From contig JAGAYZ010000064.1 of assembly GCA_017940245.1 (NCBI GenBank), forward strand, positions 1 to 42,266: a stretch of 42,266 nt of DNA, read 5' to 3'. The DNA is from Muribaculaceae bacterium. GTDB taxonomy: Bacteria > Bacteroidota > Bacteroidia > Bacteroidales > Muribaculaceae. The notes under the pieces are model-generated. The model did no database searches and had not been told where the DNA came from. It saw only the letters and a program-made list of their open reading frames with translations. The position numbers and the translations under genes are program-made. Within the stretch, counting starts at the first letter, position 1. The number at the start of each line of letters is the position of its first letter. Shown piece after piece: positions 6,600 to 16,268 of this stretch.

Positions 6600-7397
6600 T
6601 TACACGTAGTGGATGGCGGCTTTGCGAGTGATGCGCCATGCGCCTTGCTCGAGGACGGCTTCGCCGGGCATGTCGGTGACGATGCGTGTCTTGCCGGTGG
6701 AGAGCTGGATGCTGTCGCCGCTGCAAGCGCGGGTAAGGTTGTCGGTGGGCATCATCAGTGCGAAGCGATGCACATCGGCATTGTCGATAACGGTAAATGT
6801 GCCGTGCACTCCATCGGCGGTAGTGAGCTCAAAAATAGAGTTGCCCAGTTCAAAGTGTTCGCTGGGGCGTGTGAAGCAGTCTTGAGCGTCGGGCTTGGCC
6901 AGGTAGATGGTGCGCGGCTCCTGTGGCCTGTGTGCCGAAGACGGCATCGCAGAGCGGGTTGTACTGCGCTGTTGAGTCTCGGTGTGGCGAGTAGCTTTCG
7001 GCTCGCGCGACTGCATTGCCCGCAGCGCATTCAATTCACGGGCGCTTTCCTGTGCCAATTGACGCAACGATTCGTTGGTTTCATCCAGGGCGGCCAGGTA
7101 CTGTTCACGCAGTTCAATCACTTCTCGCCGTGTGAGAAATGCCATCACGCCGGCGCCGATGGCCAGTAGGGCGGCGATGCCGCATGCCATCGCCAGCCAT
7201 CCCATCCCTGAGCCGGCCGACTTTACCGGAGTCTCCTGCACAGTGGCTTCGCTGGCCGTGGCGGTGACGCTGGGAATCTCTTCCACTTGCACGCTATCGG
7301 TCATCGCCATGGTGTCGTTCTCCCATTGTAAACTGTCTTGTGCTGTGGCGCAAAGGGCCATCGCGCACAACAGCGGCAATATTCTCTTTGTTTTCAT
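6600..7397 (-). CDS. Membrane-anchored coiled-coil protein, last gene of tubulin/actin-like cluster
   Basis: I do not recognise a family. The 265 residues comprise a signal peptide (to about Ala19), an acidic/Thr-rich stretch, a transmembrane segment near 66-88 (GWLAMACGIAALLAIGAGV), a heptad-rich coiled coil at about 91-128, a basic linker, and a C-terminal domain (about 160-265) that looks beta-rich and ends in AIHYV. It starts 12 nt after the actin/Hsp70-like gene and is the last gene of the run. The likely topology is two soluble parts either side of one membrane span, so it could tether the cytoplasmic NTPases to the envelope; that is inference. Confidence 0.65.
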   Translation of the reverse strand: MKTKRILPLLCAMALCATAQDSLQWENDTMAMTDSVQVEEIPSVTATASEATVQETPVKSAGSGMGWLAMACGIAALLAIGAGVMAFLTRREVIELREQYLAALDETNESLRQLAQESARELNALRAMQSREPKATRHTETQQRSTTRSAMPSSAHRPQEPRTIYLAKPDAQDCFTRPSEHFELGNSIFELTTADGVHGTFTVIDNADVHRFALMMPTDNLTRACSGDSIQLSTGKTRIVTDMPGEAVLEQGAWRITRKAAIHYV

Positions 7398-7409
7398 AGG
7401 TCTATCATT

Positions 7410-10400
7410 TTAATTGCTTGGCTTGAACTTGCTGATCACCTCGTTGGTGAGGTTCTTGAGCAGATTGTAGCGAATCACGCCCACTACCGGGTAGAAGAAT
7501 GGCACATCTTCCACCACATCGCTAGCCTCATAACGGCCTTGCAAAAATGTGTTGATGCCTGCTGTGAGGTAGTTGGCCACGTCATCGTCGAGCACGTTGC
7601 AGAAGAGCTGGAACACGCCGTTTTCGATGCCGAACTCGTCTTTGGTGACTTTGTCGCACAAATCGATGAAGAAGCGGTTATATTCCTTCACTTGCTGCAC
7701 AATGGCATCGCGCTGTGCCGGGTCGTTCATGTCGCCATAGGTGAGTTGGTCGGTGCCCACCATGGAGTAGCAGTACTTCATGGCGTTCACGTTGCGAGCC
7801 GTGTACAAGCTGGTGTCGGCGCGGCCGTCGAGGCGTTGATTTTCCAGGCGAATTCCACCACGGCAGGTGATTTGCTTGGGACACTCGGTCTCAATTTTTA
7901 TTTCAAAGCGCTCGCTGTAGCGCTGGCCAAAGACGCGCTCGATAATGGCCTGTGTGAACTCGGTGACCTGGCCGCGCGATCCCACGATGTTGAGTATCTT
8001 TGACCCGGTACCGCTAAAGTAAATCTGCTTGGGCATCACAAAATTGCGAGCCTTCATGGCGCGGGCAATGTAGTAGATGATGGCGGCATAGAAGTAGAGG
8101 AACACGAGTTTGCGCTGCCCGTCGTTGCGCAACAGCACGTTGTAGCTATACAGGTTGCGGTCTATCTCGCGCAGGTCGCGCAGTTCTTCCACGTTTTCGA
8201 TCGAGAACAGGAAGGCGTTGATGTCTTCGCTGCGCTTGCCGCGCATGATGTCCTGCATGATGCTGGTGAGGTAGGAGATGCCGGCCGACCGGTCGTTTTC
8301 GATGATTTGCTGGAAGTAGCGGGTGTAGTGCTGCAGCAATGGGTTGTTGTCGGCATCGCGGTCGCCAAAGGCATCACCGAAGATGGCATTGCCGGCAAAG
8401 CGGAACGATGAGATGGCCACCGGCTCGCTGCGCATACCGTCGGCCGAGGGCTGGTAAATGACCGTGTCGCTGGTTCCGCCACCGATGTCAATAGACACGT
8501 AGCTGCTGCCGGTGACATCGGCACTTTTGTAGTAATAGGCCGGAGCCACCGACTCGGGATAGGCCTGTAGGCGCTCAATGTCACCGCCGATGTAGGTGCG
8601 GTACAATTCCTCCCAGGTGTCTTGTAACTTGCGCCGGTCGCTGCCGCCCATGCTCACGGGGAAGAAATAGACCACCTGCACGTTGCGCAGGTCCACATTC
8701 TCGAGCAGGGCTTTTGCCTTGATGAGCAGTGTGAGTTCGCGCAGGAATTCCTTGGCCAAGGTGGTGTCGCCCATCCACTTGAGTCCCGTGGTCACGTCGT
8801 AACCGTCGAAGAACTTGCGCTCGTAGAGGAACGGGATGTTCACGTCGTGGAACAAGCGTCGACCGCCGTCGTTGCCCGTGTTGCTGGCCAGTGCCGAGCG
8901 CAACGGGAAACCATACACGTTGTCGATGTCGTGCGGCAGGAACTCGATGCGCTGCAGTTGCTCGGCGATGTCCAGGCCGCCTTGCTTGAGCAGTGACGCC
9001 ACGAGCACCTGCTCGGTGCCGCTGGCAAAGGTGAGCGGCTCGCTCATTTGTCCACGCTCGGCCCACTCCACATGAGTGTTGGTCGTTCCGAAGTCGACAG
9101 CAAATATCAGTTCGCGGGCCGATGGGGTATAGGGTTTCCACATGGGCAAGATGATGCCGGTGAAAGTGCCCAGGTTGTTGTGAACGGTGGCCTCGGCATA
9201 GTCCCAGGTGCCGTTCACATCGTAGTATTCTGTGGTGTAAACCAGGCGTGCACGTTGTTTGTTGGTCACCTTGATGGTGCTTGTGTCGCCGCCATTGCGC
9301 AGGAATCGCAGCGATGCACTGCCGTCGCCCAGCATGGAGAACAGTTGCACGGTGTAGTCGTCGTTGCGGTCGGTGCGCACAAACGGGAACACGGCGGCGC
9401 TCATGATGACGTCTACCACGCGCCCGGTGCCACGGCGCTCATCGAAGGTCCAGGTGTGGTCGGTGGTGGGATAGTAACGCCGGGTGAGTTCTATGTAGCG
9501 TTTCTTGACGGGGATGCGCAAGGTCACCAGCACGCTGCCGTCGCTGTTCTCCTCAATGTCGAGCATGTTGCGCCCCACGACGTGGCGCTTGAGGTCGTCG
9601 GCGGTAAACCACCGGAAGAATTCGGGCTTGAGAGGCAACAGATAGCCCTTGCTGGGCTCCAAATCCTTGCTCTTGAGGTTGCCGTCGAAGAAGTGGTTGC
9701 TGTCGATGGCATTGCTCACGCGCAAGATGGTGTCGGTGAGCAGGTCGGCGGTCGTGAGGAAGGGGTACTGGATGCTGGTGTCGGGCAGTTTGCGCTGGTC
9801 GAGAGGTACCGTGCCGGCCAGCACCTCGGTTGCGCTGTCCCATTCACGGTCGATGTAGCGGTAGTGTTCCACACTGCCGTTGAAACCGTTGCACAGCACC
9901 AGTGGCAACGCCTTGGCATCGGGTTGTGGCATGGTGGGTTGGATGACGAAGTCGCTTTCGCTGGCGCTGGTGCGGATGTCGGCCACGCGCTTGTGATAGA
10001 AACGCGCTCCGAGCACGCTCACATCGGCCGAGCCGTTGAAGCGGTCGTAGGTGTGTTCCAGCACTTCGAGCACCGCAGCGGCTCGCTCGCGGTCGAGAGC
10101 GCTGGGGTTGGGAATCACCTGTGTGATGCGCTGGTAGAGTGCGCTGCGTTCGCGGCGCAGGTATTCCAGGTTGTGCAGCATGTAGCTATACACCATGCCC
10201 ACTTTCTCGCGCAGCACGGGATAAGCGTTGAACAACAAGTACATGTAGTAGACAAACTCCTCGTCGCGACTCCACAGAGGACGGTCCACCGAGAACAAGG
10301 GCACTCCCTGCTCCACTTTGATGGCATCGATGGGGGCACTCACGGGAGCCGCCATCACCAGCGATGCTGGCGAAGTGCCGCCCACCACCTGGCTACCCCA

Positions 10401-10847
10401 CAACAAGATGTACCAGTCGTGCAGGTCGTCGAAATTATATACCTTGTCGGCGGCCAGAAACAGTTCCAGCGTTTCGCCGTAGAGGCGATGCTGGTTGCTG
10501 GCTTTGAGTTGGGCCAGTTGCTCGTCGCGGTTCCACCGCACCAGGCGCAAGTAATCTTTGTGGTTCTCAAAGTCAAACAGCAGCTGAGCCACGTCCAGTG
10601 CATTCGACACCAGTCGCTCGTTCATGGCTGCACCACGCAGATAGGGGTTGCTCAGAGCGGTGAAAGCATTTTTCACCAAATCGAGTTGCGCAAATGGACT
10701 GGGAATGGCAGTGCGCGGGTTGCGCGACAGTCCACCGTCGGGATCCTTGATACGCTGGATGTCGTCGTCGGTGTAAGGCTCCACGGCAATCCAGTCTTCT
10801 TCGCCGGTGTGTGCCGTCTTGTTGCTATAGGAAAGTATATTGCTCAT
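7410..10847 (-). CDS. Large protein with C-terminal actin/Hsp70-type ATPase core
   Basis: The 1145-residue product contains the actin/Hsp70/sugar-kinase ATPase motifs in its second half: phosphate-1 VDFGTTNTHVE (584-594), phosphate-2 SIDIGGGTSDTVI (785-797), and an adenosine-type loop YFSGTGSK (943-950). The first 570 residues contain helical regions and a later beta-rich part that I cannot assign. No signal peptide or membrane span is seen, so it should be cytoplasmic. It sits 28 nt after the tubulin-like gene. Length and domain order differ from DnaK, MreB, FtsA and ParM. An SrfB-type annotation was considered but the sequence alone does not settle it. Confidence 0.8.
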   Translation of the reverse strand: MSNILSYSNKTAHTGEEDWIAVEPYTDDDIQRIKDPDGGLSRNPRTAIPSPFAQLDLVKNAFTALSNPYLRGAAMNERLVSNALDVAQLLFDFENHKDYLRLVRWNRDEQLAQLKASNQHRLYGETLELFLAADKVYNFDDLHDWYILLWGSQVVGGTSPASLVMAAPVSAPIDAIKVEQGVPLFSVDRPLWSRDEEFVYYMYLLFNAYPVLREKVGMVYSYMLHNLEYLRRERSALYQRITQVIPNPSALDRERAAAVLEVLEHTYDRFNGSADVSVLGARFYHKRVADIRTSASESDFVIQPTMPQPDAKALPLVLCNGFNGSVEHYRYIDREWDSATEVLAGTVPLDQRKLPDTSIQYPFLTTADLLTDTILRVSNAIDSNHFFDGNLKSKDLEPSKGYLLPLKPEFFRWFTADDLKRHVVGRNMLDIEENSDGSVLVTLRIPVKKRYIELTRRYYPTTDHTWTFDERRGTGRVVDVIMSAAVFPFVRTDRNDDYTVQLFSMLGDGSASLRFLRNGGDTSTIKVTNKQRARLVYTTEYYDVNGTWDYAEATVHNNLGTFTGIILPMWKPYTPSARELIFAVDFGTTNTHVEWAERGQMSEPLTFASGTEQVLVASLLKQGGLDIAEQLQRIEFLPHDIDNVYGFPLRSALASNTGNDGGRRLFHDVNIPFLYERKFFDGYDVTTGLKWMGDTTLAKEFLRELTLLIKAKALLENVDLRNVQVVYFFPVSMGGSDRRKLQDTWEELYRTYIGGDIERLQAYPESVAPAYYYKSADVTGSSYVSIDIGGGTSDTVIYQPSADGMRSEPVAISSFRFAGNAIFGDAFGDRDADNNPLLQHYTRYFQQIIENDRSAGISYLTSIMQDIMRGKRSEDINAFLFSIENVEELRDLREIDRNLYSYNVLLRNDGQRKLVFLYFYAAIIYYIARAMKARNFVMPKQIYFSGTGSKILNIVGSRGQVTEFTQAIIERVFGQRYSERFEIKIETECPKQITCRGGIRLENQRLDGRADTSLYTARNVNAMKYCYSMVGTDQLTYGDMNDPAQRDAIVQQVKEYNRFFIDLCDKVTKDEFGIENGVFQLFCNVLDDDVANYLTAGINTFLQGRYEASDVVEDVPFFYPVVGVIRYNLLKNLTNEVISKFKPSN

Positions 10848-10875
10848 TGTCGGTTCAGATAGGGTGTGATGGTGA

Positions 10876-12390
10876 TTAGTTGATGTTCTCGTAGCGGTCG
10901 CGCACGATGGTGGTGGCGGCCCGGTTGAACAGGTCTAGCAGTTTGTATTCGGCAGTGCGGGTGCTGTACTTGGCATCCCGGCTCAGGCGGTTCATTTCGG
11001 CCTTGAAGGTGTTGTTGTCCACCGTCTTGCGGCCCAGCAGGCTTTTGCGCGTGTGCACGTGATGGATGGCGTTGCTCATGTCGTTCTCGCCCATGTTGAA
11101 CAACTGCACACTGCGGTTGTTGTCATACATCTCGCTGAGCCACTCCACATAGCCGCGCATGAACTGGTCGGTGAGTGTGCGGTAGAACTGCGAGGTGAGG
11201 AAGTCGCTCTTGAGTTTAGGCTCGTCTTCGGTGAATCCCTGGCCTATCATGCCGCGCAGACCCGTGCGCAAGAACAGGAACAGCAGGTGGAATCGCACCA
11301 GTGGCTCGTAGATGAGATGGCGTGTGCTGGAGCCAAAAGCCAGGAAATCTACATCTCTCACGTCCTTTTCCAGGCCAAACTCAAATGCCATTGTCGGCAT
11401 GGGGTAGCCATTCTGGTCGGTGAGCCGGCTGTCGGCGATACCGGCAAACTTGAGCGGAGCCATTGCTGCCACGAGTTCAACAAGATGGGCGCGGTTGCGC
11501 TGGCCATGTTCGCCGGGGTCGTAGGCATAGGGTTTCGACACCTCTTGGTCGCCCACGTAGAAGATGGCGTTCAACTCGCTGTCGTTGGACCCGGTGAGCG
11601 TCTCCTTGTAGTAGTAGAGTGCGCTCTGTGTCTTGACGATGAAGTCGGCCTTGTCGATGCGATGGTCGTCGTTGTGCTCGATGTTGAAGTAGGGAAGCAC
11701 GGTGATGCCACCTATAGGAGCCCGGCGCAACACATCGCGGTTGTTGATATCGAGGTTGCTGGCTTGGCGCAGATTTTTCACCATAATGGGGAATCCGGCA
11801 GCGCCAGTACCGCCAAAGATGGAACTGATGAAGAAGATGCGGTCGCCGGCATTGAACACATTGGCCAGTGCCTTAAACTCGTCGCTGTCTTTGATTTCGT
11901 TCAGAGCTACGCTACCTATGTTGGGCGAGCCCACGAAACCGATGTTCATGCGGTTTTCCAGCTGATAGTCGGCAAAGAGGAGCGACGTGAGTGCCTGGTT
12001 GGCCTCGTTCATAGTGTCGTAGCCGATGAAGTCGCGGAATTTTTCACGTTCCACGGCACTGAGGTTGAAGATAAACGTGTCGTTGAGCTGGATGGTGCTG
12101 TCGCTCATGATTTCGCGCAGGGTGACGATGCGGTTGGCAAAAAAGCCATCCACGTTCACCTCGTTGCCGTAGAGCCGATTGCGAATCGAGCGATAGTTGG
12201 TGAGCAAGGCCTCGGTGCGCTTGAGGTCTTCGTTACTCTTGTGCGGGTCGATGATGACGGGCACAATTTCAAGATTGGGAACGGGGTGGCCGTCTTCGTC
12301 GACGGGGCGTACACCGGCCGCCGAGAGCATCAGCAGCGACTTGAGCACGCGCGATCCGGTTCCTCCTATAGCAAGCAAAAATAAACGCAT
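10876..12390 (-). CDS. Tubulin/FtsZ-like GTPase-fold protein (Tubulin_2 type)
   Basis: The 504-residue protein starts with a strand and glycine loop AIGGTGSRV (7-15) and has a second glycine box FGGTGAAGFP (192-201), which corresponds to the GGGTGSG signature of tubulin/FtsZ. VIIDPHKSN (46-54) fits the next nucleotide-contact strand. This arrangement matches the 'tubulin-like' Pfam family PF13809 rather than cell-division FtsZ. It is 28 nt before the actin/Hsp70-like gene and behind a four-TM protein. Polymerisation and GTP use are predicted from the fold only. GAA in place of GSG in the signature is a mild departure. Confidence 0.8.
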   Translation of the reverse strand: MRLFLLAIGGTGSRVLKSLLMLSAAGVRPVDEDGHPVPNLEIVPVIIDPHKSNEDLKRTEALLTNYRSIRNRLYGNEVNVDGFFANRIVTLREIMSDSTIQLNDTFIFNLSAVEREKFRDFIGYDTMNEANQALTSLLFADYQLENRMNIGFVGSPNIGSVALNEIKDSDEFKALANVFNAGDRIFFISSIFGGTGAAGFPIMVKNLRQASNLDINNRDVLRRAPIGGITVLPYFNIEHNDDHRIDKADFIVKTQSALYYYKETLTGSNDSELNAIFYVGDQEVSKPYAYDPGEHGQRNRAHLVELVAAMAPLKFAGIADSRLTDQNGYPMPTMAFEFGLEKDVRDVDFLAFGSSTRHLIYEPLVRFHLLFLFLRTGLRGMIGQGFTEDEPKLKSDFLTSQFYRTLTDQFMRGYVEWLSEMYDNNRSVQLFNMGENDMSNAIHHVHTRKSLLGRKTVDNNTFKAEMNRLSRDAKYSTRTAEYKLLDLFNRAATTIVRDRYENIN

Positions 12391-12449
12391 CTTATCTAGA
12401 ATGAATTTTTAATTATGATGATGAATTGGGCTTCGGTGCCGCGCTTTCT

Positions 12450-12899
12450 TTATTGCGGGATGGGGGTGTGGCGGCAGTTGGTGCTCCACCAGCGCATGGA
12501 AAATGAAGCCACGATGAAGAGCAGTGCGGCCCACATCATGTTCACCAGTTCAAAGGTGAGCGACTCGGCCACATAGCTCAGCCCGTTCTCGTCAAAGATA
12601 CTGCTGTTCACCATGTATCCTGCAATGGGTGCCAGCATCACCGTCAGGGCCAGCATCACCAGCCAGTGATACCAGCGGTCGAAGCGCACAGAGTTGATGG
12701 CAAAATAATAGATGGCGGCCATAGCCCATGCCACCACTATGGTGATGAGCGGAATCATGTCATACAGGCCCAGGTTATAGAGCTGGTCGCTGTATCCGGC
12801 CACAGAGTAGATACTCTCGTAGGCATTGATGCGGAAGATGTAGAACAGCACGGTGACTACGATTCCGGCAATGAGATAAATGAGATGTTGCTGTTTCAT
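12450..12899 (-). CDS. Four-TM membrane protein of the tubulin/actin-like cluster
   Basis: A 149-residue protein with four predicted membrane segments (about 6-22, 47-69, 79-100, 118-136) and short loops; the second loop pair holds RFDRWYHW. No family is recognised. It lies between the vWA-like lipoprotein (100 nt upstream) and the tubulin-like gene (59 nt downstream), all on one strand. It could be the inner-membrane member that links the lipoprotein and the cytoplasmic NTPases, which is inference from order only. Confidence 0.7.
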   Translation of the reverse strand: MKQQHLIYLIAGIVVTVLFYIFRINAYESIYSVAGYSDQLYNLGLYDMIPLITIVVAWAMAAIYYFAINSVRFDRWYHWLVMLALTVMLAPIAGYMVNSSIFDENGLSYVAESLTFELVNMMWAALLFIVASFSMRWWSTNCRHTPIPQ

Positions 12900-12999
12900 A
12901 TCTAATCAATTATGAATTCAAAATAGCGATATATGGCGGAAACAATTTGTTGTTTTTTAACCATGCACTGCACATCACAAGGATTGATGCAGGGAAAAA

Positions 13000-14445
13000 C
13001 TAGCGTTCCAGTTTCAATTTGATGGTGGTGTAGTTGCCGCCCTGCCCAAAAGCGCTGGCAATGCCTCCCAAGAATTCTTTCAGTCCCAGGGTCGTTGTCG
13101 CAAAGCCGGGTTGCGATGGGTTGGTGTCGCTCATCGCTGTTGATTGCTCGATCCATGCAGGGAACTCATTGGCCAGTGAGATGGTCACTTCGTCGCGCGG
13201 CTCGGTGAGCTTTCCGGTGAGCGTGAGCAGATGGGTCTTGCCTTCGAGATAGGCACGGTTGTTGCCCGTGACCATGCTGTGGTCGATGGGTTGCACCTTG
13301 AGTGTGAAACCGCTGATTGACTTCAGCTGATAATGCGAAGCATCGGCCAGGAAAGCCGCCGGTTTCTGCAGCCCGTTCAAGTTGGCGGCCACACTGAAGC
13401 AGATGATGCCGGTGGTTTTGTCGCCTTCACACTTGGTGAGATGTGTGGCGTCGTGGTGGTCGACCCTGAATCGACCGGCATTGTCTTTCCAGTCGGGTAT
13501 CACGCAATAGTCGACCGAGGCTTCGGCCTGGTTGAAACGGTATGAATTGCGGACTCCAGCGGGACTCATCAACTGTGCATAAGCCGCATCGGCAGCCATG
13601 GCATCCATCACCTTGCTGTCGGCAATCACCAGCATGTAGAACGGTCGCTGGCCAGTGTAGTTGAAGGGGTTGTTGTTGTAGGGATAGTATTTCCCTTGAT
13701 AGTCGCCCATGAACTGGTGAACCAGTATGGATTTGCCCTTATACTGCCTGAAGATGCGAGTGGCCAGGCTGTTCTCCTCGTTGAAAATTTTTTCCACACT
13801 CACGTCGCGTGTGTCGGCCGGTGAGTAGATGAGATCGGTGACCAGCACGCTCACGTTTCCGGCGGTTTGTACCCGCAGAATATCGTTGAAAATCTTCTGG
13901 AAGTCGGTGAAAGCGGCATTGCCCACACCCTGTGTGCTGGCATAGATGTTGCGGTCTTGCAGGAACTGGTCTATGCTGCCTTGATAGGGATAGATGCCGT
14001 CGTTGACGATGTTGATGGCCACGTTGCCGGTAGCGGGAAAGTGGTTGATCATGTCGTTCACCGCCTTTTTGAGTTGGCCGCGTCCGCCGGGAGCGTCGTA
14101 GGGCACCATGGAGCCGCTGCGCTCAAAGTAGATGGTGAGGGAGAGTTGTTGCAGGCCATAGCGGGTCACGTCCCAGTGCATGGGCGGGCGCAGGTTGCTG
14201 CCGGTAGATTCAATCAGTTCGGCCAGTGCCGCCACATCCACCTCGCCACCGTCGGTGAGGTAGGTCTTGTAGCGCTCGGGATAGGCCTTGATGATGGCGC
14301 AGATGGAGTCGAAGCGCGCTTGTGTGGTGTCTTGCTGCACCAGGGCTTGCTTGATGGCTTTCTCCAGTGGAGATGTGCTGCATGAGTTCATCGTCAGAGC
14401 AATGGCGACCACCAACAGGGGAATGATGTAAAATATTTTTTTCAT
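13000..14445 (-). CDS. von Willebrand A-like lipoprotein
   Basis: The 481-residue product has a lipoprotein signal peptide (Cys22 in MNSC). A vWA-like domain follows: TIYFERSGSM (104-113) matches the first MIDAS strand, Thr180 fits the second metal-loop position, and VLVTDLIYSP (200-209) has the third-position Asp204. The first MIDAS acidic residue is Glu108 instead of Asp. The C-terminal 200 residues appear beta-rich. It is 39 nt after the DUF4834-like gene. By family knowledge vWA domains bind partner proteins through a metal ion; the partner here is unknown but the downstream cluster is the obvious candidate. Confidence 0.72.
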   Translation of the reverse strand: MKKIFYIIPLLVVAIALTMNSCSTSPLEKAIKQALVQQDTTQARFDSICAIIKAYPERYKTYLTDGGEVDVAALAELIESTGSNLRPPMHWDVTRYGLQQLSLTIYFERSGSMVPYDAPGGRGQLKKAVNDMINHFPATGNVAINIVNDGIYPYQGSIDQFLQDRNIYASTQGVGNAAFTDFQKIFNDILRVQTAGNVSVLVTDLIYSPADTRDVSVEKIFNEENSLATRIFRQYKGKSILVHQFMGDYQGKYYPYNNNPFNYTGQRPFYMLVIADSKVMDAMAADAAYAQLMSPAGVRNSYRFNQAEASVDYCVIPDWKDNAGRFRVDHHDATHLTKCEGDKTTGIICFSVAANLNGLQKPAAFLADASHYQLKSISGFTLKVQPIDHSMVTGNNRAYLEGKTHLLTLTGKLTEPRDEVTISLANEFPAWIEQSTAMSDTNPSQPGFATTTLGLKEFLGGIASAFGQGGNYTTIKLKLER

Positions 14446-14484
14446 TGTTTTTTCATGTTTTGTTTTTTTGTAGCAGTAGGATGG

Positions 14485-14769
14485 TTATAATTCTTCAAAG
14501 TCGGCATCCACTACTTGTTCCTCGGTTCTGACCGGTCCTGTCGATTCGGTGGCCGTTTCTCGGGTGGCCCCTCGCACCTCCTCATAGTCGGCATATTCTC
14601 CCACTTCGCTTCCGAAGCGTTTGTCGTCGGCATAGATCTCTTGCTCGCGCTGGCGCACACGGTTGTAGGTGTCCTCCATGTTGCGGCGGGCGCGACGCAT
14701 GAGCATCCACATCTTCACGATGGGAAAGAAGATGATGAACAGAACAATCAGTAATAGCAGTTTAATCAT
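14485..14769 (-). CDS. Small membrane protein, DUF4834-like
   Basis: A 94-residue protein with one N-terminal membrane segment (about 2-20, IKLLLLIVLFIIFFPIVKMW), a basic patch RRARR, then a charged, probably disordered tail ending in acidic residues. The layout and its place right behind pssA fit the DUF4834 proteins found beside pssA in other Bacteroidales. It starts 22 nt after the pssA stop. Function is not known. Confidence 0.6.
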   Translation of the reverse strand: MIKLLLLIVLFIIFFPIVKMWMLMRRARRNMEDTYNRVRQREQEIYADDKRFGSEVGEYADYEEVRGATRETATESTGPVRTEEQVVDADFEEL

Positions 14770-14791
14770 TTGCGTCTTTTATTATGTTGTG

Positions 14792-15508
14792 TCAGTGTGT
14801 GTCGGCCTGTGCAAAAGTGTTCTTGCACACGGCCAGTAGCACATATAGGGCAATGGTCACAGCCAGTCCGGGCAGTCCCATCAGCACCACACATGCCACT
14901 GCACCCACAACTAGCAAAAACTGTGCCCAATTTTCACGCAAACTCATGTTGTGTAGTTTAAGCGAGAACATGCGCAGGTTGCACACCATGAGCAGCGACA
15001 GAGCCACGATGCACGCTACCACCACCCACTGGCTGATGGTGTGGTGTGTGGCATACCATGCAGCGAAGCCAATCCAAAAGATGGCATTGGCCGGAATGGG
15101 CAGGCCGGTGAACGTGGTGGTCTGCTCGGTGTCGACATTGAACCGTGCCAGGCGCAGCGCGCCGAACACGGGCAGTAACATCGCCGTCAGGCTCCAGTGG
15201 CTGTCGGGAACTGCGGCATGCATCAAGTTGTATATCACCATGGCGGGAGCCAGCCCGAAGGTGACCAGGTCGCTCAGCGAGTCGAGTTCCTTACCGATAC
15301 CGCTCACTGCGTGCAGCATGCGTGCCGAAAAACCATCCAGAAAATCGGCTATCGCTCCCAGGGTTATAAGCAAGAAGGCCAGTTGGTAACCCTGCAGTCC
15401 CCACAATGTTTCATCGAAGCAGCTAAACGATGCCACGATGGCCAGCGAGCCGCACAGCAGGTTAAGGCAGGTTACCGCATTTGAAATGTTGTTTATAATC
15501 TTTTTCAT
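14792..15508 (-). CDS. pssA: CDP-diacylglycerol--serine O-phosphatidyltransferase
   Basis: PssA makes phosphatidylserine from CDP-diacylglycerol and serine in the inner membrane. The CDP-alcohol phosphotransferase signature D-G-x2-A-R-x8-G-x3-D-x3-D is complete (Asp58, Gly59, Ala62, Arg63, Gly72, Asp76, Asp80). Several membrane helices follow. I take the ATG that gives MKKIINNISN (238 residues) because the longer frame would run into psd and begins with a non-hydrophobic segment. psd ends 32 nt upstream, so the two enzymes of phosphatidylethanolamine synthesis are paired. Confidence 0.95.
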   Translation of the reverse strand: MKKIINNISNAVTCLNLLCGSLAIVASFSCFDETLWGLQGYQLAFLLITLGAIADFLDGFSARMLHAVSGIGKELDSLSDLVTFGLAPAMVIYNLMHAAVPDSHWSLTAMLLPVFGALRLARFNVDTEQTTTFTGLPIPANAIFWIGFAAWYATHHTISQWVVVACIVALSLLMVCNLRMFSLKLHNMSLRENWAQFLLVVGAVACVVLMGLPGLAVTIALYVLLAVCKNTFAQADTH

Positions 15509-15540
15509 TACACTGTACTGTCTAGATAAATTAAGGTTGA

Positions 15541-16215
15541 TCACTTGCGGGCCAGGCGAGCCACTTGTGTTTCTCCGCCCCATGTCTTGTCGCCCAGTTT
15601 CACCAGGATTTCGGTGTCGAGCGGCAGGAAGATGTCAACGCGCGAGCCAAACTTGATGAAACCCACGAAATCGTTGATGTCGACCTGGTCGCCCACTTCC
15701 ACGTAGGTGACTATGCGGCGGGCAATGGCCCCGGCTATCTGGCGCACCAGAATGTCGTCGCCGCCCGGGGTGGTGATGACCACGGTAGAGCGCTCGTTGT
15801 CGGTGCTCGATTTGGGCAGGTTGGCAGCCAGGAAGCGTCCTGAGTGATGCTTCACATATTTCACATCGCCGGCCACCGGCACCCAGTTGGCATGCACGTT
15901 GAACACGGTCATGAACACCGACAGTTGAATCACATTCTTGTGCAGGTATTCATCCTCATAGACTTCTTCAAGAGCCACCACGGTGCCGTCTACGCTCGAT
16001 ACCACCACCGAGCCGTCTTTTTCCCCCTTGAAGTGCCTGCGGGGCAGGCGGAAAAAGTTGAGCACCAGCATGAAAAGCAGCACCGACAGCACAATGAACG
16101 CGATGGGAATGGGTTTATATTCGATAAACATATATGCCGCCACGTTGACGACAACTAGTATGAGCAATACTACCGCAATGATGTTTTTACCCTCGTGATG
16201 TATCTTTACTTTCAT
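15541..16215 (-). CDS. psd: Phosphatidylserine decarboxylase (short form)
   Basis: Psd makes phosphatidylethanolamine. This is the short, membrane-anchored form (224 residues) with two hydrophobic helices near residues 11-30 and 37-55. The self-cleavage site is seen as FGSRVD, with Gly190-Ser191; the Ser becomes the pyruvoyl group. HANWVPVAG and VKHHSGRF are conserved core segments. It is the first gene of a run that leads into pssA and the tubulin/actin-like cluster, and a consensus promoter lies just upstream. Confidence 0.95.
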   Translation of the reverse strand: MKVKIHHEGKNIIAVVLLILVVVNVAAYMFIEYKPIPIAFIVLSVLLFMLVLNFFRLPRRHFKGEKDGSVVVSSVDGTVVALEEVYEDEYLHKNVIQLSVFMTVFNVHANWVPVAGDVKYVKHHSGRFLAANLPKSSTDNERSTVVITTPGGDDILVRQIAGAIARRIVTYVEVGDQVDINDFVGFIKFGSRVDIFLPLDTEILVKLGDKTWGGETQVARLARK

Positions 16216-16237
16216 ATCTTTATTCTAGTTTAATCTG

Positions 16238-16268
16238 CAAAATTAATGCAAACCGACCGCAATACAAA
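16238..16268 (-). promoter_or_regulatory. Promoter of the psd-pssA run
   Basis: On the minus strand TTTG (16265-16268) is followed after 19 nt by TAATTTTG (16238-16245), an exact Bacteroidota promoter. It lies 22 nt from the psd ATG. It may also drive the following vWA/tubulin/actin-like genes if no terminator intervenes; I see none. Confidence 0.8.

Follow-up and report, generated by a model that had tools for sequence, protein, structure and literature searches.

Tubulin-superfamily proteins of the FtsZl1 type, accompanied by partners with a von Willebrand factor A (vWA) domain, were described in 2010 by Makarova and Koonin, who predicted a role in membrane remodeling; a reviewer of that paper suggested transport or signaling (PMC2875224; here and below, papers are cited from those parts of their text that were accessible). 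In the literature we surveyed, no tested function is reported for these proteins, in print since 2010, and the Tubulin_2 family was set aside as divergent in PMC9871819. Kaur et al. (2020) placed tubulin, Hsp70, and vWA components in GTPase-centered predicted conflict systems of other phyla (PMC7159879). In Zorya, evidence indicates that ZorAB requires peptidoglycan binding and ion flow, and ZorAB has been proposed to sense phage entry and recruit a nuclease (PMC11890865). Here we describe a cluster of five genes in a 42,266-nucleotide (nt) stretch of DNA from a member of the Muribaculaceae that lives in the gut or rumen (contig JAGAYZ010000064.1; hereafter the window). It encodes a vWA-like lipoprotein, a protein with four transmembrane (TM) segments, a tubulin-like protein, an actin/Hsp70-like ATPase, and a coiled-coil protein.

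The cluster is real and conserved, is known only in part, and constitutes a branch of the published FtsZl1/vWA systems. FtsZl1 (PF13809) systems likewise place a tubulin-superfamily protein other than FtsZ next to a vWA partner and membrane proteins, are patchily distributed, and include members from Bacteroides and cyanobacteria, as here (PMC2875224). The novelty that an earlier note on this DNA had implied for the tubulin-like protein is thus superseded by the 2010 description. The vWA gene of the FtsZl1 operons is matched by that of the lipoprotein, two genes upstream of the tubulin-like gene, whose vWA fold is weakly supported. FtsZl1 operons often hold a protein kinase or a P-loop GTPase, whereas Pfam (E-values up to 1) finds neither in the five genes and five nearby ones. 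An OmpA-type partner is present here in a subset of loci, and both of the proteins tested are ZorB-like. The near-constant ATPase partner is a further difference. It is not named in the accessible parts of PMC2875224, in whose main text "Hsp70" is absent and "actin-like" stands only within a reference. What is new here is this ATPase, together with a ZorAB-like pair present in 11 of 109 mapped loci.

The GAP1-N2 systems of Kaur et al. share tubulin, vWA, and Hsp70 components with the cluster and are predicted to be NTP-dependent and to act at the membrane (PMC7159879). They center on GTPases of another type, whereas Pfam finds no TRAFAC-type GTPase in the five genes and five nearby ones (GAP1 itself was not searched). 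Their tubulin and Hsp70 themes do not overlap and occur mainly in firmicutes and actinobacteria (PMC7159879). In magnetotactic bacteria, McaA and MamK, compared by description only, join a periplasmic vWA protein with a metal-ion-dependent adhesion site (MIDAS) to an actin-like cytoskeleton, but the accessible text describes no tubulin-like partner (PMC9512821). No operon like ours appears in the accessible parts of PMC9512821, PMC12505986, and PMC5898192, or in the titles and abstract openings surveyed, a survey outside which most subscription papers fell.

Since the five genes are kept together and a ZorAB-like pair accompanies them in some distant relatives, the unit may be a machine that guards or shapes the envelope. 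Among the functions considered below, we tentatively favor a membrane-anchored sentinel with two nucleoside triphosphatases (NTPases) that would respond to envelope attack or stress, possibly as an anti-phage system; we place it a little below an even chance.

Conservation and distribution of the five-gene unit

The open reading frames (ORFs) occupy positions 6600–14445 of the minus strand, where the earlier note had placed them, and in the same order. They encode the vWA-like lipoprotein (481 residues, 13000–14445), the four-TM protein (149 residues, 12450–12899), the tubulin-like protein (504 residues, 10876–12390), the ATPase (1145 residues, 7410–10847), and the coiled-coil protein (265 residues, 6600–7397). 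The intergenic gaps measure 100, 59, 28, and 12 nt in this order, in line with the 12–100 nt noted. Chance motifs were rejected on the basis of invariance across relatives, shuffle controls, and the ratio of nonsynonymous to synonymous substitution rates (dN/dS). This ratio lies between 0.025 and 0.457 in 15 of 15 comparisons (five genes against three relatives), which fits purifying selection on all five genes, although dS values of 1.0–2.1 are near saturation and make the ratios rough.

Scanning a collection of species genomes with a 15-row alignment gave at least 551 relatives among 595 candidate stretches. The best 80 of the 551 were kept and are, for that reason, mostly close relatives; 14 are short of flanking DNA and 66 have enough. 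The core genes lie on one strand in all 80 loci. Their order is that of the window in 69 of the 80, and in 64 of the 66 with enough flank. The exceptions include L093, with two ATPase genes, and L020, which has neither the ATPase nor the coiled-coil gene in the available DNA and carries RHS-like genes (by eye) after the tubulin-like gene. Three loci with the standard order (L019, L032, and L060) have additional genes inserted between the two NTPase genes. We also hand-picked 20 divergent regions from the matches. The tubulin-like gene is followed by the ATPase gene in 18 of them, and all five genes were recognized in only 9. Over the 109 mapped loci, the ATPase gene comes immediately after the tubulin-like gene in 102. 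The single linked system that the earlier note had proposed is therefore seen in the close loci, and the two NTPase genes are rarely apart anywhere, whereas the complete set is less constant in divergent regions. Neither condition under which the note would have given up a single system, missing profile support or five genes mostly apart in relatives, is borne out; the profile support is weak for the vWA fold and comes through relatives for the tubulin fold. Duplicate alignment rows and rows whose length fell beyond fixed bounds were left out, and near copies (L100 and L101, with L147 close to both; L016 and L077) were all counted.

Within the phylum, only 8 of 296 genomes hold the tubulin-like gene. 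The ATPase gene is found in seven, all among those eight, and the eighth (G381) has an adjoining ATPase gene by local profile. The divergence of the two NTPases is matched over 74 loci with r 0.987, against 0.20 for the best of 500 shuffles; common descent alone could give part or all of this correlation. The unit is found in 12 of 198 genomes of the order by a single-protein search, and in 44 of 198 genomes of the family by a profile search. No same-genus genome is present among the 20 misses listed, beyond which there were 134 further misses.

The five cyanobacterial plasmids with a tubulin-like gene all hold the ATPase gene as well. Five IMG/VR contigs carry the tubulin-like gene; three are also listed for the ATPase, and the other two have it by local profile. 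Among the IMG/VR contigs, by eye, L099 has the pair next to baseplate-like genes, L102 next to genes resembling a terminase and a resolvase, and L103 next to a MobA-like relaxase, which suggests that mobile elements may carry it. A system for partitioning or maintaining such elements, TubZ- or ParM-like and later turned chromosomal, would accord with the plasmids and with relaxase genes nearby (2 of 139 neighbor proteins). However, the cluster also lies on large chromosomal contigs (for example of 2.7 and 1.6 Mb) and includes a lipoprotein and membrane proteins, and Pfam recognizes no DNA-binding adaptor among the five proteins. We consider such an origin very improbable. Membership in the gene set of known phages was rejected, as neither NTPase, nor the distant tubulin of L102, has a match in 50,697 phage records. 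A first viral scan with a single protein led nowhere.

In L093, two adjacent actin/Hsp70-like genes (1219 and 908 residues) occupy positions 9822–16236. Extra genes lie directly 3' of the tubulin-like gene in L019 (11528–12796), L020 (from 11527 on), L032 (11589–12053), and L060 (9283–11914). By eye, they comprise a DUF1016-type nuclease, RHS-like genes, a GxxExxY-type protein, and a Dam-type methyltransferase accompanied by a partner. The insert of L019 is flanked on either side by a copy of the first 29 bp of the ATPase gene, a pattern like that of an integration site.

The NTPases and their membrane-associated partners

We place the 504-residue protein provisionally in the tubulin superfamily, as a divergent branch with FtsZl1/Tubulin_2 as its nearest kin. 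The window protein itself is sub-threshold in Pfam (PF00091, 17.2 bits; PF13809, 14 bits against a cut-off of 27), but 12 of 15 diverse relatives match PF13809 at E ≤0.01 (best 2.3e-10) and 11 of 15 match Tubulin at the same threshold (best 3.1e-9). Profile support for the fold, which the earlier note had asked for, thus comes from the relatives. Of the two tubulin-type glycine boxes noted, the T1-like loop GGTGSR (residues 7–16, 12343–12372, minus strand) stands, with G9, G10, and G12 invariant in 111 of 111 rows. The T4 signature loop SIFGGTGAAGFP (residues 190–201, 11788–11823, minus strand) has an equally invariant FGGTG, but reads FGGTGAAG, a variant of GGGTG[ST]G with F for the first G and A for [ST].

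A PDB profile search with the family returned a Tubulin/FtsZ GTPase chain at E 0.041 and FtsZ chains no better than 0.35, along with the unrelated chains RAD50 (0.074) and colicin E1 (0.2). Alignment by hhalign with FtsZ of relatives gave 0.2–0.3% only, which speaks against an easy tubulin assignment. Q297 and E305 are invariant, and H302 is 95% conserved, in a candidate region that is unaligned to the T7 loop of the FtsZ and TubZ filament formers. FtsZl1 proteins have an extended coiled coil and an alpha-helical C-terminal domain; in the 504-residue protein, a crude heptad score reaches 0.65 at residue 419, below that of the ATPase (0.725). Ordinary FtsZ was rejected as the identity of this protein, canonical FtsZ having been found elsewhere in the genome by profile. 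A second, divergent FtsZ-like ORF of 343 residues, with the degenerate signature GGETGTN, lies beside two uncharacterized genes on contig C69 of genome G000 (locus L127, 1027–2058, minus strand), and second FtsZ-like matches also occur in G696 and G687.

By its PHOSPHATE-1, PHOSPHATE-2, and ADENOSINE motifs and its profile similarity, the 1145-residue protein is a predicted actin/Hsp70-superfamily ATPase. The motifs, of which the phosphate motifs had been noted before, fall between residues 584 and 952: PHOSPHATE-1 is VDFGTTNTHVE (residues 584–594, 9066–9098), PHOSPHATE-2 is YVSIDIGGGTSDT (residues 783–795, 8463–8501), and the ADENOSINE-like motif is IYFSGTGSKIL (residues 942–952, 7992–8024), all on the minus strand. 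D585, G587, D787, G789, G790, D794, and G946 are invariant in 101 of 101 rows. In a single hhalign comparison, the family aligns with DnaK of relatives at 95.3% (E 2.2e-8), against at most 0.3% for 20 column shuffles, over DnaK columns 42–242 of 681 only.

The window ATPase matches no Pfam family, PF00012 included. Among 35 relatives, 4 match Ppx-GppA (best 4.6e-6), 6 match FtsA (best 0.0021), 3 match EutA, and 4 match an exopolyphosphatase profile (best 2.2e-6); four unrelated Pfam families appear at 0.005–0.1 in one or two of them. A PDB profile search returned ten chains at E 0.052–0.6, all from Hsp70, MreB, or the actin family. We take the Ppx-GppA, FtsA, EutA, Hsp70, MreB, and actin families to share one fold. 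SrfB was rejected as an identity (5 of 35 relatives, best E 0.03), as were ordinary DnaK and ordinary FtsA, which lie elsewhere in the genome by profile and by eye, respectively. The first ~580 residues had no match in any search made.

An Hsp70-type core is what would be expected if the ATPase were the chaperone-like engine of an envelope protein quality-control or assembly system, with the vWA lipoprotein serving as its periplasmic adaptor and the tubulin-like protein providing a scaffold. Its long N-terminal region could bind clients, and trypsin-like and aspartyl proteases adjoin some loci. However, hhalign reveals no substrate-binding domain, the aligned part of DnaK being the restricted segment given above, and among the nearby genes none of the Sec, Bam, or Lol type came to notice (no search was aimed at them). 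We regard a quality-control role as unlikely.

The 481-residue protein was noted earlier as a vWA-like lipoprotein. Its lipoprotein character is borne out by a lipobox with Cys22, and a plain lipobox-like pattern is present in 85 of 94 relatives. Its vWA fold is weakly supported. The MIDAS-like motif IYFERSGSMVPY (residues 105–116, 14098–14133, minus strand), placed by conservation and hhalign register, contains E108-x-S-G-S, which begins with Glu rather than Asp in 97% of the 94 rows. Cys22, Ser110, and Asp204 are invariant in all 94 rows, and T180 is kept in 90%. Alignment of the family by hhalign with PF13519 vWA proteins of relatives reached 44% (E 2.3e-4) and brought the MIDAS residues into register; shuffles gave ≤0.7%, and mismatched pairs ≤5.7% (vWA against FtsZ). 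No Pfam vWA family was matched in 21 members or, in a separate Pfam scan, by the window protein, and a PDB profile search gave only two matches, both integrin alpha-M (E 0.58 and 0.69). Six distant upstream proteins considered as vWA candidates have family-profile E-values ≥0.09, no clear MIDAS motif, and a pooled hhalign value of 37.7%. In L022, a second small protein with a vWA-like DKSGSM motif follows the cluster (9572–10255), with no Pfam match at E 0.05.

Hydropathy assigns four segments to the 149-residue protein, whose family is found in most loci. The 265-residue protein has a signal-like N-terminus (by eye), a TM segment at residues 70–88, a coiled-coil-like stretch, and a conserved C-terminal domain. 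TM segments are absent from 22 of its 94 relatives, including a 186-residue form in L016. Some Prevotella relatives lack the N-terminal membrane part, so the C-terminal domain would be cytoplasmic, together with the NTPases. By crude hydropathy, neither window NTPase has a TM segment, and a single hydrophobic segment shows up in 32 of the 111 tubulin-like relatives and in 18 of the 101 relatives of the ATPase. The profiles and sequence features thus bear out two NTPase folds in a membrane and lipoprotein setting, as envisaged in the earlier note.

The chief competitor of the sentinel reading is a membrane remodeling or vesicle machine, in which tubulin-like filaments would bend or pinch the membrane and the ATPase would anchor or regulate them, as FtsA does for FtsZ. 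The same type of tubulin-superfamily protein, with a vWA partner, led its describers to this very prediction (PMC2875224). The weak FtsA matches of the ATPase relatives, a multi-TM protein in every complete operon, and the presence of the cluster in 16 of 16 own or same-genus genomes among the matches listed also agree with remodeling. However, canonical FtsZ and FtsA lie elsewhere in the genome, the nuclease, protease, and TerD neighbors of some loci are unexpected, and filament-forming residues of the tubulin-like protein cannot be placed beyond T4. We consider remodeling rather unlikely, if a serious contender. With a near-constant ATPase partner and a ZorAB-like pair, this broad proposal can be put to the test: binding between the two NTPases and a response of the cluster to envelope attack would be expected.

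ZorAB-like neighbors and a possible envelope sentinel

In 11 of the 109 mapped loci, a ZorB-like OmpA/MotB protein (202–266 residues) and a weakly ZorA-like membrane protein (494–565 residues) are encoded downstream of the cluster on the same strand. Counted from the tubulin-like gene, the ZorA-like gene lies at +2 to +4 and the ZorB-like gene at +3 to +6. ZorB profiles match both small proteins tested (2.3e-15 and 1.2e-5), and Pfam assigns OmpA (6.7e-4) and MotB_plug (0.04) to one of them. An Asp in the TM segment is kept in 11 of 11 ZorB-like rows, and presumably corresponds to the Asp of the MotB proton channel. None of the five core genes belongs to Zorya, and ZorC, ZorD, and ZorE were not noticed near the cluster (no search was aimed at them).

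In a midpoint-rooted tree with long branches flagged, from which 3 of the 11 loci (L131, L132, and L133) were left out, the ZorAB loci fall on three branches outside the clade of the window. This could reflect the loss, in that clade, of a pair present earlier, or the gain of the pair more than once. In the clade of the window, a zinc-ribbon protein often fills the place of ZorAB (74 such proteins over 54 loci, with 61 at +3 or +4), and is itself missing from the window cluster.

Other neighbors were examined in 33 loci, where 155 proteins were reduced to 139 after 11 were dropped for length and 5 fell beyond the first 150. Among the matches listed are trypsin-like protease (6), TerD (3), SNase (2), the HsdR N-terminus (2), and relaxase (2), and an aspartyl protease lies beside the cluster in 8 loci. 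TerD-domain genes occur downstream of distant copies of the pair in L146 (2859–4063, one at Pfam 1.4e-70) and L103 (17688–18869), the others being recognized by eye.

The sentinel reading builds on the observed linkage, motifs, membrane and lipoprotein features, and ZorB-like neighbors. By analogy with Zorya, we propose that the five proteins would form one complex anchored at the inner membrane and signaling through its membrane proteins to the GTPase–ATPase pair, taken as cytoplasmic. The four-TM and coiled-coil proteins would hold the complex to the membrane, and the exported, MIDAS-bearing vWA lipoprotein would face the periplasm. Envelope disturbance, whether phage entry or damage, would be felt by this lipoprotein or, where other lineages have one, by a ZorAB-like channel anchored to peptidoglycan. 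The signal would switch the NTPase pair, whose assembly state would then activate effectors that differ by lineage (nucleases, proteases, TerD proteins). That the proteins touch, hydrolyze nucleotides, assemble, and sense, and that they serve in defense or stress, is what we infer here.

This reading draws support from the five-gene order in close loci, the adjacency of the two NTPase genes, and their matched divergence. It is also supported by the ZorAB-like pair, by the SNase, protease, TerD, HsdR, and relaxase neighbors in distant loci, and by flanks that vary by clade and a pair carried on five cyanobacterial plasmids. Gene sets with tubulin and vWA components are, moreover, predicted conflict systems in other phyla (PMC7159879).

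Several observations weigh against the sentinel. Its presence in every listed genome of the genus looks more like housekeeping than a patchy defense gene. The window copy lacks ZorA and ZorB. The ZorA profile is weak on the larger protein (E 0.0052 in L094, along the tail; 0.028 in L131), and the L131 protein matches LeoBC better (6.2e-8), while that of L094 has no Pfam match. Comparison with ExbB/TolQ gives only 9% over 20 columns (8 sequences; shuffles ≤0.4%). Acetyltransferase, TPR, and AAA domains are as common among the neighbors as TerD, and most neighbor families are ordinary; these are raw counts over the first 25 of 122 families. In the window, Pfam detects no nuclease or protease among the five nearest neighbors tested. 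PADLOC gives a single weak match for the five proteins (LeoBC, 0.023, on the coiled-coil protein) and, for the ATPase family, PDC-M61B (0.011, 2 of 35) and Cas5b (0.018, 1 of 35).

If the sentinel reading is correct, tubulin and actin superfamilies would be joined in one membrane machine, connected to ion-driven defense motors. A more specific version would be an envelope immune machine in which the tubulin-fold and actin-fold NTPases co-assemble at the inner membrane, switched by the vWA lipoprotein and, in some lineages, by a proton motor of the Zorya kind that may be ancestral, and in which the effectors are exchangeable. We think this version improbable. If true, it would be, to our knowledge, the first obligate tubulin–actin partnership in bacteria outside division.

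Flanking genes of the window

By Pfam, psd and pssA lie upstream of the cluster, and an SDR enzyme, a RibF-type gene, and a UPRTase gene downstream. These flanks rarely recur among relatives (pssA in 3, UPRTase in 2, psd in 1); other flanks are shared within small clades and differ from clade to clade. An Rfam search gave no match, and the fold downstream of the cluster carries no signal (z −0.39).

The psd and pssA genes and a 94-residue ORF (14485–16268) are co-directional with the vWA gene and separated from it by 39 nt, and may share a transcript with it. Against this, pssA and the 94-residue ORF are common to only three relatives, and psd to one. The Bacteroidota promoter pattern has 3 matches against 0.73 expected, a number reached by 6 of 100 shuffles, and none lies directly before the vWA gene. 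One match is found at 16238–16268, on the psd/pssA side of the cluster.

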